A DNA stretch of 43,016 nt from assembly GCA_025060305.1 (NCBI GenBank), contig JANXCD010000002.1, forward strand, positions 1 to 43,016, given 5' to 3'. The position numbers were made by a program, and so were the translations under genes. Below the pieces are notes generated by a model that saw nothing but the letters and a program-made list of their open reading frames with translations, did not search any database and was not told where the DNA came from. This DNA is from Armatimonadota bacterium (GTDB taxonomy: Bacteria; Armatimonadota; Fervidibacteria; Fervidibacterales; Fervidibacteraceae). Shown here one piece after another: positions 35,933-42,414 of the stretch; position 1 is the first letter of the stretch, and every line of letters starts with the position of its first letter.

Positions 35933-37243
<1,311 letters not shown>

Positions 37244-37244
37244 C

Positions 37245-38147
37245 TTACTCACGAATTTGTAAGCGGCGCTGTTTGAGTAAATTCTCCAACTCATTCGCTT
37301 TGAATTCCGCACGAGGCTCTAACTTATGCCACTCAGTCATTTGTTTCATTATCGCATAGGCAGATTCATAGTCACCCATGTCTTGATAGATTTTTGCCAG
37401 CATATGCCTCGGAATAGTAGCGAATTTCTTATCTGGATGCCTGATAATGTTTTGAAGAATTTGTATGCCTTCATCATAGTAGCCATTTTGAGACATTGAT
37501 TCAACAACTGTGTATCGCTCCGATAAGGTTATAGTTGCCCCTCTTGCTACCGGGTTGTATGGAGCATCCAAACTTGACTCTTCCCAATGCTTCATTGCCA
37601 GTCGCATGTTTGGCATCCTTTCGTAATTGTGAGCCAACATGTTGCGAACCCAATCAATGTCTTTCGTGAACTTTCCTGGTGCATTCAGAGCATCTTCCAA
37701 GTAATAGGCTGCTAAAACTGTATCGCCAAGTTTGTCGTAAGCAGTCCACCCTAAACCAAAGAGCAGACTAAAACTGTTCGGCGAACGCTCTAATCCGTGT
37801 TCGTAAACTTGTATTCCCAGTTTGACCCATTGGACTCTTTTGCTCTCGTCCTTCTCTTCAGCCCTTAAATTGTAAGCAATATGCCAACCAGCAAAATCAA
37901 AAGCATCAGCGAAAGTTGGGTCTAAAAATGTGGTAATGCGAAGCAAAGGAAGCACCATCCACCAGCGACCAGTGTCTCGGAAGATTTCAGATTGTTGCCA
38001 TACAACTCTCGCTAATAACCTGCCCAATAAACGATAACTATTAACTTGCTCCGATGAAACGAGTGGAGTAAAACTAAACCTAATAATTGCTGAACTAATC
38101 AAAAAAAACAGAATTAGCGCAATTATTGGATAGTATCTTTTTATCAT
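37245..38147 (-). CDS. Membrane-anchored TPR-repeat protein, last gene of the molybdenum hydroxylase operon
   Basis: A 300-residue protein with a single N-terminal membrane segment (YYPIIALILFFLISSAIIRF) and a helical remainder resembling tetratricopeptide repeats, e.g. WHIAYNLRAEEKDESKR, GLGWTAYDKLGDTVLAAYYLEDALNAP, MLAKIYQDMGDYESAYAIMKQ. TPR arrays bind other proteins. I recognise no specific family. The ATG at 38147 uses GAGGTGAT, a site that overlaps the stop of the upstream membrane-protein gene (7 bases away), so the two are tightly linked. It could tether or assemble the membrane protein, but this is inferred from position only. Confidence 0.75.
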   Translation of the reverse strand: MIKRYYPIIALILFFLISSAIIRFSFTPLVSSEQVNSYRLLGRLLARVVWQQSEIFRDTGRWWMVLPLLRITTFLDPTFADAFDFAGWHIAYNLRAEEKDESKRVQWVKLGIQVYEHGLERSPNSFSLLFGLGWTAYDKLGDTVLAAYYLEDALNAPGKFTKDIDWVRNMLAHNYERMPNMRLAMKHWEESSLDAPYNPVARGATITLSERYTVVESMSQNGYYDEGIQILQNIIRHPDKKFATIPRHMLAKIYQDMGDYESAYAIMKQMTEWHKLEPRAEFKANELENLLKQRRLQIRE

Positions 38148-38153
38148 TTTATA

Positions 38154-38834
38154 TCACCTCACTTCCGGCAATTCCCATTTTGACTGAAATTGGCGAATAT
38201 AGAGACATATAGAAGCCACAACAAACCAATAAATTAATAAATGAATCGCTGACGCTAATGCGATTTCCAAACCTTGCCAACCTTCAAACAAAATAAATTG
38301 TCTTAATTGTTCAATTGACCTGTATGGCACTATTAAATTCCAAAAATCCAATAATGATTTAATTACCAAACTATCTACAAACATCTCTGCTTCTACAAGC
38401 AACTGAGAAAAAATAATCGTTCCAATGAAACCTATTATCCATAAAACACGATATTTACGAAAACTTATTTCCAAAAAATATATTAGACTCGTAAGAATAG
38501 ATACAATTAGAAAAGAAAATAAAAACTTAATATATATAGATAGATCCAATTCTTTAGATATAAACATACCCGTGACTATTAGGAATACGAAACTAAGAAA
38601 TGAGATAAAAAGAACAGATCTAAGAATGTTGAAGTAACCTAGGATGTGATGATTCGTGTACTTTTCTGTTTTGATCAGCATAAATATAGGGAAAATAATA
38701 TAAATGATAAGAAATAACCAAAACACAGAGTAGAATGTTGACGTTATATCGACTACAGTAACGTTGTATATAAATATTTGAAAAAGTGTAGTGATTAGAA
38801 TAAAATAGAGCAAGGCGAAAATTACATATTTCAT
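38154..38834 (-). CDS. Six-helix membrane protein, ABC-permease-like
   Basis: A 226-residue, very hydrophobic protein with about six membrane segments (starting YVIFALLYFILITTLFQIFIY; ending LLIYWFVVASICLYI). The DNA is much more AT-rich than its neighbours. It is unrecognised at family level; its position directly after an ABC-ATPase-derived gene, and its final helix arrangement, recall ABC-2-type permeases. The ATG at 38834 overlaps the ABC-like stop (ATGA) with GGAGGAATGAAGCA before it, indicating translational coupling. Function unknown. Confidence 0.75.
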   Translation of the reverse strand: MKYVIFALLYFILITTLFQIFIYNVTVVDITSTFYSVFWLFLIIYIIFPIFMLIKTEKYTNHHILGYFNILRSVLFISFLSFVFLIVTGMFISKELDLSIYIKFLFSFLIVSILTSLIYFLEISFRKYRVLWIIGFIGTIIFSQLLVEAEMFVDSLVIKSLLDFWNLIVPYRSIEQLRQFILFEGWQGLEIALASAIHLLIYWFVVASICLYIRQFQSKWELPEVR

Positions 38835-39241
38835 TGCTTCATTCCTCCTTCGGTAAATTCTGTTAATTTATAGTTTTTTTGAATAATTTTATTGAAAATT
38901 TCTATAATTTGGATGACAACACCTTTGGCAAGTTTGGTGTAGTTTGTTCTGGGGTTCACTATGATTAGAAAAGGTTGAAAGTCAGACGAACTTTGAACTT
39001 TCGGATGAATTATTGATCTCAAAAAGGCTTGACGGGGCGGTAGATTATATGCCCATATTTCACCACTACCTGGAAGTTCAAATCCACACAAAGTTCTTAG
39101 AATAGCTCCTTTTCCTTTACTATCGCTTAGAATGCTGATGTTTTCTCCTTCATTTATCATAAGATTTAAGTCACTAATTATCGGAAAGCCGTCAATCTTT
39201 ACACTTAAATGGTGAATCTCCATGGCAATCACAACTGTCAC
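38831..39241 (-). CDS. Degenerate, shortened ABC-transporter ATPase-like protein
   Basis: A 136-residue ORF clearly derived from an ABC ATPase but lacking every catalytic motif. The start EIHHLSVKIDGFPIISDLNLMINEGE is a normal ABC opening; the Walker A site (GxxGxGKS) is replaced by SDSKGKGA; LRTLCGFELPGSGEIWAY is retained. The helical domain and the LSGGQ signature are missing, and the Walker B DEP box appears as FLIIVNPRTN. The frame is nevertheless intact and its GTG start overlaps the stop of the molybdenum subunit by four bases (GTGA), while its stop overlaps the next start (ATGA). It may start at an internal GTG or at the ATG six codons in. It could be a structural pseudo-ATPase or a decaying gene. 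Confidence 0.7.
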   Translation of the reverse strand: MTVVIAMEIHHLSVKIDGFPIISDLNLMINEGENISILSDSKGKGAILRTLCGFELPGSGEIWAYNLPPRQAFLRSIIHPKVQSSSDFQPFLIIVNPRTNYTKLAKGVVIQIIEIFNKIIQKNYKLTEFTEGGMKQ

Positions 39242-41457
39242 ACTCCTGCTTTAGCGACGTTTAACTCCTGATAAAGAATTATGCGCTCAGGTGTAATTGG
39301 TGCTTCCAAAATCCAAAAACCAGTGGCATCAGCAACAGCGCTTGCCACAGCAGTTAGACCCAATGTAATTGGTGGTTCTCCAATTCCCTTAACTCCATAA
39401 GGTCCATGTTCCGAAGGAAATTCTAACAAGGTAGTCTTCACTTGTAAAGGGGCATCAGCCATTGTTAGGATTTGGTAGTCGGCAAGGTCTGGGTTTATGA
39501 TTCGCCCTTGTTCGTCATACTTCATTTCTTCCATGCTTGCCCAAGATATGGATTGAGCGATTCCTCCTTCAACTTGACCTTCACACATTGTTGAATTGAC
39601 AACCCTACCGACATCTAAAGCCTGATAGGATGCCAAGATTTTCATTTCTCCAGTTTCTGAATCTACTTTGACTTTAACCGTTTGTGCAAAGGTAGCGAGA
39701 TTTGATGGCTCTGCTCCAAATGTCCCTTTCCCGATGATTGCTCCTTTTAGCGATCGCATTGCGCTTCTAACAATTTCTGCGAAACTCAAAGAGCGTTCAG
39801 GATCAGACTTCACCCATATCCTCTTTTCGCCTACTTCCAAATCTTCAAGTTTAACCCCTAATTGTTCTGCTGCGATTTCAAGCATTTGGTTTAAAGCATC
39901 TTCTGCTGCACGCTTTGCTGCATTACCTACGCTGAAGGTTATAGTGCTTCCACCACTTGGTGGCGAGAAAGGTGCTGAGTCAGTATCGCCCCTCACAAAA
40001 GTTACATCTTCATAGTTGACTTTTAGAGTTTCAGCAACGATCTGCGACACAGCTGTTTCAGTTCCGTTAATGTCCATCATGCCACAGAAGATTTTTGCTG
40101 AGCCATCTTCGTCAATGAAGACAAAGGCTGATGCTGGTGAGGATGCATTTTGCCAATGTCCTAATGCTATTCCCCAACCTTCGTTCTTCTCTTTTTCCCT
40201 GTTAAACCACTGACATTTATCTACGACTGCCATGAGCGTCTCTTTGACGCCTGGTATGTCTTCTCTCAGGTTTTTCAATCTCATTTCAACGGGGTCAATT
40301 CCCAGTTCTTGGGCTATTTTGTTAATTTGTGTTTCACCAGCAAACAGAACTTGAGGGAAACCTGGTGCTCTATAAGCGCCTGTTGGAGGAGTGTTTGTTG
40401 CAATTTCGTAGGCATCCCATTTCACATTGGAAGTTTTGTAAAGCCGAGCGAATGCTCCTGTTGCCCAAGAGGCGCCGCCGCTAACACCGACATTCCATAG
40501 CGCATAAACATATCTGGCAAGTATTGTCCCATCGCTTTTGACGCCTGTTTTGATTTTTACATAAAGACCAGGTGCAGGCGTTGCGTCAAGAAATTCGTCT
40601 GTGCGAGTGTAAACGATTTTGGCTGGGCGCTTTGTGAAGAGAGTAAGGAGAACCGCATAAACATCCACTATGCCTCCAAATTTAGCACCGAACCCACCAC
40701 CTATTGTCATGCCAATGACATTGATGCGAGAAAGGGGTATGCCTAAAGACCTTGCTATGTTGCTTCTGACGGCAAAAATCCCTTGAGTTGATGTCCATAC
40801 GGTAATCTTTCCTTTTTCATCAATGGAAGCGATTGTGGCTTGAGGTTCAAGATAAGTTTGATGGACACGATGGACATAGAATTCGTCTTCAAAAACATAA
40901 TCGCTTTCAGCAAAACCTTTTTCCACATCGCCTTGCTCATAGTGATTTTCAGAAATGACATTGTAAAGCAATTCCCCATTTGGACCTTGAACTGGTTCTC
41001 TATCTTCCCAAACCAAAGGTGCGCCTTCCTTGACCGCTTCCCTCGGATCAACTACTGCTGGAAGTGGTTCATAATCCACTTCAACCAATGAAGCCGCTTC
41101 TTTTGCTGCTTCCAAAGTTTCTGCTCCTATCAGAGCAATTTTTTCGCCGTAATATCTGACTTTATCGCTGGCGAACAATCGTCTTATCCTTTGAGCAGCA
41201 TGAACCTCTTCTTCAACGACTAATGCAAAGTCTTTGCTTAATTGCTCTTGAGTAATAATTGCCAGAACACCAGGAACTTTCCATGCTTTTGTGGTGTCAA
41301 TTCGTTTAATTCGTGCATGAGCGTAAGTGCTGCGAACGAAAACGCCATATATCATGTTAGGCAGCACTAAATCTGCCGTGTAAAGTGCTCGCCCAGTAAC
41401 TTTGTCTATGGCATCAGTTTTTATAACGCCCTTTCCAAGCACCTTGAATTCTCCCAT
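39238..41457 (-). CDS. Xanthine dehydrogenase-family molybdopterin-binding subunit
   Basis: The large subunit of a molybdenum hydroxylase, 739 residues. Visible are GRALYTADLVLPNMIYGVFVRSTYAHARI (domain 1), RVHQTYLEPQA, the cofactor loop TIGGGFGAKFGG (about 255-266), TGAYRAPGFPQ with the Arg of the family's AYRGFG region, SGGSTITFSVGNA and the catalytic Glu in GVKGIGEPPITLG. Its substrate (purine, aldehyde, CO or other heterocycle) is not indicated; the CO dehydrogenase active-site loop with its Cys is not seen. The ATG at 41457 has an AGGGAGGTCGCAAA site, 14 bases after the FAD subunit stop. It overlaps the ABC-like gene. Needs cofactor from the MoeA pathway. Confidence 0.94.
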   Translation of the reverse strand: MGEFKVLGKGVIKTDAIDKVTGRALYTADLVLPNMIYGVFVRSTYAHARIKRIDTTKAWKVPGVLAIITQEQLSKDFALVVEEEVHAAQRIRRLFASDKVRYYGEKIALIGAETLEAAKEAASLVEVDYEPLPAVVDPREAVKEGAPLVWEDREPVQGPNGELLYNVISENHYEQGDVEKGFAESDYVFEDEFYVHRVHQTYLEPQATIASIDEKGKITVWTSTQGIFAVRSNIARSLGIPLSRINVIGMTIGGGFGAKFGGIVDVYAVLLTLFTKRPAKIVYTRTDEFLDATPAPGLYVKIKTGVKSDGTILARYVYALWNVGVSGGASWATGAFARLYKTSNVKWDAYEIATNTPPTGAYRAPGFPQVLFAGETQINKIAQELGIDPVEMRLKNLREDIPGVKETLMAVVDKCQWFNREKEKNEGWGIALGHWQNASSPASAFVFIDEDGSAKIFCGMMDINGTETAVSQIVAETLKVNYEDVTFVRGDTDSAPFSPPSGGSTITFSVGNAAKRAAEDALNQMLEIAAEQLGVKLEDLEVGEKRIWVKSDPERSLSFAEIVRSAMRSLKGAIIGKGTFGAEPSNLATFAQTVKVKVDSETGEMKILASYQALDVGRVVNSTMCEGQVEGGIAQSISWASMEEMKYDEQGRIINPDLADYQILTMADAPLQVKTTLLEFPSEHGPYGVKGIGEPPITLGLTAVASAVADATGFWILEAPITPERIILYQELNVAKAGV

Positions 41458-41471
41458 TTTGCGACCTCCCT

Positions 41472-42344
41472 TTAATTCTGAGCGACTGCTTTCTTATATG
41501 CATCCATGACGACACGCTTTGTTAGTCTATAAACCATGATGCGCCTATATTCGGCTGTGCCTCTTTGGTCAGTGATGGGACTGCTTGCGTTTTGCGCCAA
41601 ACTTGCTGCCTCATCTAAGACAGATTCATTCAGTGTTTTCCCAATCAAATTCTTTTCTGCCTCGTAGGCTCTAATCGGAGTTGGCGCTACAGAACCGAGA
41701 GAAATTTTAGCGTCAATTATGATGCCGTATTCATCAACTGCTATCGTGGCAGCAGCGTTTACAATGGCTATGTCCATGTATCGGCGGACTGAAAGTTTGT
41801 AAAAACTGCTCCCAATTCTCTCTTTTGGAATAGGGATAATGACTTCTGTAAGCAACTCGTCTGGCTGGCGAACAGTTTTGCCAGGACCGATAAAAAACTC
41901 TTGAAGTGGAATTATTCGCTCATTCCTTTTGCTAACGAGTTTGACTGAAGCATCTAAAACTAAAAGCGCTGGAAGGGTATCTCCAGCAGGAGAAGCGGTG
42001 CATATATTTCCACCGATTGTAGCCATGTTTCGGATTTGCAAAGAGCCAACAACTCTTGCTGAATCAGCAAGCACGGGCGCATGTTGGCAAATTAAAGGCG
42101 AAGTTTCCAATTCTCTCATTGTTGTTCGGCTGCCGATACGAATTTGACCGTCAATTATTTCTAAGCCGACAAAAGGGTAGCACAATGGGATTTCAACAAC
42201 GAGTTCCGGCTTTAGCCGACCTCTTTCCATGAACAAGATAAGGTCAGTTCCTCCTGCCAATGCACTCGCCCGTTCACCATATTCTGAAAATATGTTCAAG
42301 GCTTCATCCAAATTTTTCGGAGCGCAATAATCAAACCAATGCAC
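41472..42344 (-). CDS. Xanthine dehydrogenase-family FAD-binding subunit
   Basis: The medium subunit of the molybdenum hydroxylase, 290 residues, of the CoxM/XdhB type. The first FAD-binding motif is ALAGGTDLILFMERG (about 34-48) and the second ATIGGNICTASPAGDTLPALLVLDA (about 112-136), both standard. The C-terminal domain (SLGSVAPTPIRAYEAEKNLIG) matches the family. The start is a GTG at 42344 with AAGGAGGGGCAAATTT before it, downstream of a strong promoter. It passes electrons between the iron-sulfur subunit and the final acceptor. A [2Fe-2S] subunit gene, normally adjacent, is absent from the window. Confidence 0.94.
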   Translation of the reverse strand: MHWFDYCAPKNLDEALNIFSEYGERASALAGGTDLILFMERGRLKPELVVEIPLCYPFVGLEIIDGQIRIGSRTTMRELETSPLICQHAPVLADSARVVGSLQIRNMATIGGNICTASPAGDTLPALLVLDASVKLVSKRNERIIPLQEFFIGPGKTVRQPDELLTEVIIPIPKERIGSSFYKLSVRRYMDIAIVNAAATIAVDEYGIIIDAKISLGSVAPTPIRAYEAEKNLIGKTLNESVLDEAASLAQNASSPITDQRGTAEYRRIMVYRLTKRVVMDAYKKAVAQN

Positions 42345-42385: not shown

Positions 42386-42414
42386 ATGTTAGCCTCAAGG
42401 ACTTTGCATGTCAA
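42386..42414 (-). promoter_or_regulatory. Promoter of the molybdenum hydroxylase operon
   Basis: On the minus strand TTGACA, exactly 17 bases, then TAACAT lies 42 bases upstream of the FAD-subunit GTG. It is the best sigma70-like promoter I could find here. The start of ilvD is divergent, and its own promoter in the same gap is not clear. Confidence 0.6.

Follow-up and report, generated by a model that had tools for sequence, protein, structure and literature searches.

A reduced ABC-2/TPR cassette behind molybdenum hydroxylase genes in the family Fervidibacteraceae (Armatimonadota)

In NosDFY, an ATPase and an ABC-2 permease act on an extracytoplasmic partner. Together with XdhABC and HcrABC, among the molybdenum hydroxylases, this machine provides the closest described counterpart of the locus examined here. 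The window, i.e. the whole stretch of 43,016 nucleotides that was analysed, belongs to an Armatimonadota genome and carries five minus-strand open reading frames that run from 42344 down to 37245 with gaps of 14, -4, -4 and 6 bases (Table 1), an arrangement already described in the original prediction and confirmed by the coordinates of the open reading frames. The first two encode hydroxylase subunits, and the three that follow (hereafter the trio) encode an ABC-like protein, a membrane protein and a TPR protein. The TPR gene and serS are convergent, their stop codons lying 1 base apart (37243-37245 of the window).

The family comparison covers three usable genomes from two genera, all of them draft assemblies: that of the window itself (G000, 63% complete), G002 from the same genus (96%) and G003 from the same family (90%). 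In G001, which is only 61% complete, neither the Mo nor the membrane gene was found, possibly owing to incompleteness.

Table 1. Coordinates of the operon features in the window and of the separate iron-sulphur subunit gene
Feature	Position	Strand	Length and basis
FAD-binding subunit, XdhB-like	41472..42344	-	290 aa; Pfam FAD_binding_5, CO_deh_flav_C
Mo-cofactor-binding large subunit	39238..41457	-	739 aa; Pfam MoCoBD_1/2, Ald_Xan_dh_C
Reduced ABC ATPase (ABC-like, mini-ATPase)	38831..39241	-	136 aa; hhalign, P-loop alignment, Foldseek
Membrane protein, putative degenerate ABC-2/NosY-type permease	38154..38834	-	226 aa; gene position, orthologues, Foldseek
Signal-anchored TPR protein (predicted)	37245..38147	-	300 aa; homologues in phylum, N-terminal sequence
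Promoter-like site TTGACA-N17-TAACAT	42386..42414	-	10/12 consensus match; about 42 bases before the FAD start codon
[2Fe-2S] subunit gene beside glyS	L043:691-1197; relatives on L123, L124		

The hydroxylase and its subunit genes

The domains of the products of the first two genes show that these proteins are the FAD and Mo subunits of a xanthine-dehydrogenase-type hydroxylase (xanthine oxidase family). The FAD subunit matches FAD_binding_5 (8.9e-48) and CO_deh_flav_C (3.9e-28), and its top NCBIfam model is XdhB (NF043083), which it matches with 217 bits, below the cut-off of 310 bits. The Mo subunit matches MoCoBD_1 (1.1e-67) and MoCoBD_2 (4.2e-65), with Ald_Xan_dh_C also confirmed, carries the GIGEPP active-site motif and displays no Tat signal; its nearest solved structure is the alpha subunit of 4-hydroxybenzoyl-CoA reductase (1rm6). 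Its scores stay below the cut-offs both for the best NCBIfam model, TIGR03194 (472 bits for a cut-off of 994.55), and for XdhA (NF043082; 449 bits for 780). As the curated cut-off is reached for none of the named NCBIfam equivalogs, including xanthine dehydrogenase and 4-hydroxybenzoyl-CoA reductase proper, no substrate can be assigned to the hydroxylase.

The original prediction also implied that the enzyme is devoid of a [2Fe-2S] subunit. This is contradicted by a single-copy gene located on another contig of the window's genome (C227), whose product matches PF01799 with 112.6 bits and which diverges from a gene that, from its translation, we take to be glyS. In all three family genomes, the iron-sulphur gene is divergent from the adjoining glyS and stands apart from the FAD and Mo genes, and with its orthologues in G002 and G003 it rules out the loss of this subunit; it most likely encodes the third subunit of the window's hydroxylase. 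In G004, G024 and G031, the corresponding gene is paired with a FAD gene, the best Mo match lying on another contig; scattered subunit genes are therefore ordinary in the phylum. No export signal is visible in the Mo or the Fe-S subunit.

Genes for XdhC_C proteins are present in G002, G003 and G004, and none was found in the incomplete genomes G000 and G001. A role of an XdhC chaperone was considered as an explanation of the locus and set aside, these genes lying on contigs other than those of the FAD, Mo and trio genes. A second Mo hydroxylase is encoded in both G002 and G003; its Fe-S subunit (L108:8173-8805 and L109:6995-7618) starts with a twin-arginine-like signal (RRDFL and RRSFL, respectively), which suggests that this second enzyme is exported.

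The original prediction further placed one strong promoter in front of the five genes. A TTGACA-N17-TAACAT site does occur there; however, promoter-like matches in the region around the operon are no commoner than in shuffled sequence (10 found for 13.8 expected) and the 250 bases preceding the FAD gene contain no similar site in G002 or G003. Because of this chance-level frequency and of the lack of a counterpart in the two relatives, the site is regarded here only as a consensus match.

An ABC-2/TPR cassette across the phylum

A homologue of the TPR protein is encoded, nearly always in single copy, by 192 of the 201 Armatimonadota genomes. Outside the window's family, the TPR gene is directly preceded by a gene encoding a six-TM ABC-2 permease in all 51 genomes inspected, which represent 24 families. 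The permease gene is itself preceded by a full-length ATPase gene (304-317 aa aligned) in all 33 genomes (27 + 6) with enough sequence; 16-17 of these loci served to build the ATPase and permease profiles, so that matches there exist by construction, the remaining loci being independent. In G004, which belongs to the same order as the window's genome, Pfam recognises ABC_tran, ABC2_membrane_2 and TPR in the three proteins. An apparent second loss of the ATPase, in a genome of family f20 (G108) that provides the only long region without detectable ATPase, was discarded, since the stretch includes runs of N and six relatives from f20 carry the full-length gene. Literature searches found no paper describing such an Armatimonadota cassette, which apparently has not been described so far, nor any paper on Armatimonadetes and xanthine dehydrogenase.

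None of the cassettes inspected outside the family has Mo, FAD or Fe-S genes in its vicinity and, reciprocally, no cassette genes are found near the other Mo loci examined. In G004, a more distant Mo-subunit gene (44% identity) stands without the three followers, and the intact ABC trio is located elsewhere, which is what the original prediction had named as evidence against a functional unit. The order of the five genes, which it proposed to look for in related genomes, is thus conserved within the family, whereas beyond it the trio occurs without Mo genes.

The five-gene block and its reduced transporter

The order FAD, Mo, ABC-like, membrane, TPR recurs in G002 and G003, and the Mo and ABC-like genes overlap by 4 bases in all three genomes. 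The lengths of the encoded proteins are also kept (136, 145 and 140 aa for the ABC-like protein, 226, 226 and 233 aa for the membrane protein, and 300, 301 and 301 aa for the TPR protein in the window, G002 and G003, respectively). The flanks differ among the three genomes on both sides of the block. In the window, they are ilvD and serS. For the two relatives, the translations suggest a response-regulator/HD gene with a glyoxalase-like gene (G002) and an AAA/DUF pair with a radical-SAM-like gene (G003). The linkage of the five genes has therefore outlasted the reshuffling of their surroundings, and the conserved order amid different flanks rules out both a recent decay and a chance neighbourhood.

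The ABC-like protein does not reach the Pfam cut-off for ABC_tran (E 0.036). However, its N-terminal ~78 aa align with the ATPases of the intact cassettes (hhalign probability 97.8, E 1.1e-12, 76 columns), its low-confidence model matches nucleotide-binding domains (Foldseek probability 1.00), and the mini-ATPases of the family show mutual homology along most of their sequence (E 1e-17 and 2e-17). Where the intact ATPases have the P-loop GPNGSGKTT, the three species read SDSKGKGA, APPDQLTL and GPLPLARI. In each of the three, this segment is one residue shorter and has lost the Walker lysine-threonine pair, so that the P-loop alignment retains no Walker A motif (GxxGxGK[ST]). This one-residue loss, common to the three species, is consistent with a single ancestral event. 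As the profile alignment ends after ~78 aa, the Q-loop, signature, Walker B and H-loop are missing or unrecognisable, and no counterpart of the C-terminal ~60 aa is detectable in the intact ATPases; a remnant of Walker B and H-loop in this half seems plausible by eye and is unsupported by the profile alignment. Globally, these comparisons show that the nucleotide-binding site and the greater part of the ATPase had disappeared in the ancestor of the family.

The membrane protein has no Pfam match, including to ABC2_membrane, and its comparison with the profile of the cassette permeases, tried as a means to establish homology, is not significant. Orthologues occupy the same place of the operon in G002 and G003. 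The low-confidence model of the protein (pLDDT 57, pTM 0.38) has as its top four PDB matches the ABC-2 permeases PmtCD and NosY, with a best E of 0.3 (Foldseek). From this weak structural match and from the position of its gene, the protein is likely, although not proven, to be a degenerate ABC-2 permease. The G+C content of its gene is 0.29, 0.36 and 0.39 in the three genomes, far below the 0.41-0.62 of the FAD, Mo and TPR genes. The last protein of the operon displays weak Pfam TPR matches and begins with K/R followed by a single hydrophobic segment; from this, it is predicted to be held by a signal anchor, its repeats being extracytoplasmic.

The constraint exerted on the trio is very uneven. 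Within the family, identity reaches 59-71% for the TPR protein and 70-80% for the Mo subunit, versus 32-35% for the permease and 31-36% for the mini-ATPase. In all 65 pairs from two control families, the identity of the permease is at least that of the TPR protein, within 0.02. The relation being reversed in the window's family, constraint has been relaxed on the transporter parts and not on the TPR protein, which is shown by these identities to be under by far the strongest constraint within the retained trio.

Such a divergence raises the question of a passive decay, in which the ATPase and permease genes would be mere leftovers, open only to carry translation to the TPR gene. The low identity of both proteins, about one third compared with the conserved TPR protein, and the loss of the catalytic motifs of the ATPase agree with this explanation. 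However, both frames are open in the three species in spite of their high divergence (after shuffling, 0-1.6% of trials gave an open frame), both protein lengths stay within narrow ranges (136-145 and 226-233 aa), the mini-ATPases are significantly similar over most of their length and the membrane protein retains a multi-helix pattern. Because of the open frames, the kept lengths and the mutual similarity of the mini-ATPases, the two genes are not plain pseudogenes, and passive decay is rather unlikely to account for them. The idea, put forward initially, that a decaying ABC cassette had been captured downstream of the hydroxylase genes is thus right as to ancestry, intact trios being present in the phylum, but not as to recency: three species of two genera have in common the reduced form and the entire five-gene order, the decay being ancient, common to them and stabilised.

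Origin and role of the trio

We favour, as the probable explanation, that the cassette no longer hydrolyses ATP and is kept as a membrane scaffold for the TPR protein, co-expressed with the Mo hydroxylase. In the ancestor of the family, the ATPase lost its nucleotide site and the trio came to follow the FAD and Mo genes immediately. The trio of this family would thus work without ATP hydrolysis by an ATPase of its own; the mini-ATPase and the membrane protein would remain as a passive scaffold holding the TPR protein in position on the outside of the membrane. The trio would be linked to the Mo enzyme by co-expression, through one transcript and a 4-base translational overlap, and not by a physical redox or transport complex. 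Indeed, since the TPR protein is predicted to lie outside and no export signal is visible in the Mo or Fe-S subunits, the two are unlikely to meet directly, and co-expression offers a simpler connection. A more elaborate version, in which a permanently disarmed ABC-2 machine, made of the mini-NBD and a remodelled permease, would carry the phylum-wide TPR protein as a static platform, its level being linked to the Mo hydroxylase because the TPR system senses or handles the product or the redox state of that enzyme, seems unlikely.

The trio might instead be a membrane module dedicated to the Mo hydroxylase, involved in its anchoring, in the passage of electrons or substrate, or in its maturation. 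The maintenance of the five-gene block in three species and two genera amid different flanks and the 4-base overlap of the Mo and ABC-like genes in all three genomes speak for such a module; nevertheless, the trio is found phylum-wide without neighbouring Mo genes and Mo genes occur elsewhere without the trio, the predicted locations of the TPR part and of the enzyme lie on opposite sides of the membrane, outside and inside, respectively, and no redox or cofactor motif is recognised in any of the three proteins, all of which makes this explanation improbable. Of the proposal that the trailing genes anchor or supply the enzyme, what stands is thus a linkage conserved in one family only; a tight and general functional unit with the Mo enzyme is not supported, nor is the undescribed redox or transport unit also envisaged, and a family-specific co-expression is possible.

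Searching the family for a full-length cassette-clade ATPase yielded none, a result that rests on G002 (96% complete) and G003 (90%), G000 being 63% complete. That another cellular ABC ATPase energises the membrane protein in trans, the cassette still transporting, is hardly probable: several further ABC-2-type ATPases exist in the family, as does one ATPase-permease pair related to the cassette (G002:C20), but this best replacement candidate has its own permease, is placed outside the cassette clade with 96/95 support and has no counterpart among the best matches in G000 and G003, and the segment of the permease expected to couple to an ATPase (KPVxRxxFLLGK in the intact permeases) is not conserved in the window's family.

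Beyond this operon, the near-universal ABC-2/TPR cassette of the phylum is the more useful result. The loss of the motor in one family that has kept the TPR protein suggests that the latter is the element that matters, and this natural loss of the ATPase offers a route to the function of the cassette. It also illustrates how a pseudo-ABC protein and XDH-type genes can come together in one operon that is not a new redox transporter.

Compared with XdhABC and HcrABC, the window's enzyme displays the same FAD and Mo subunits with the expected domains, the GIGEPP motif and a [2Fe-2S] subunit encoded in the genome, but its three subunit genes are split between two places and its scores are below the equivalog cut-offs. 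The intact cassette shares with NosDFY the order of an ATPase, a small six-TM permease and an exported partner, this partner being a TPR protein instead of NosD; by analogy, resting on general knowledge and a weak fold match, it probably works like a NosDFY-type machine with the TPR protein as its extracytoplasmic partner. Relative to both NosDFY and the intact cassette, the ATPase of the window's family is reduced to 136-145 aa, i.e. ~40% of the length, and is devoid of a nucleotide site. With the Armatimonadota cassette, the window's trio thus has in common the TPR orthologue, the gene order and the N-terminal homology of the ATPase, and it differs by this reduced ATPase, by a fast-evolving permease and by its position behind the FAD and Mo genes.
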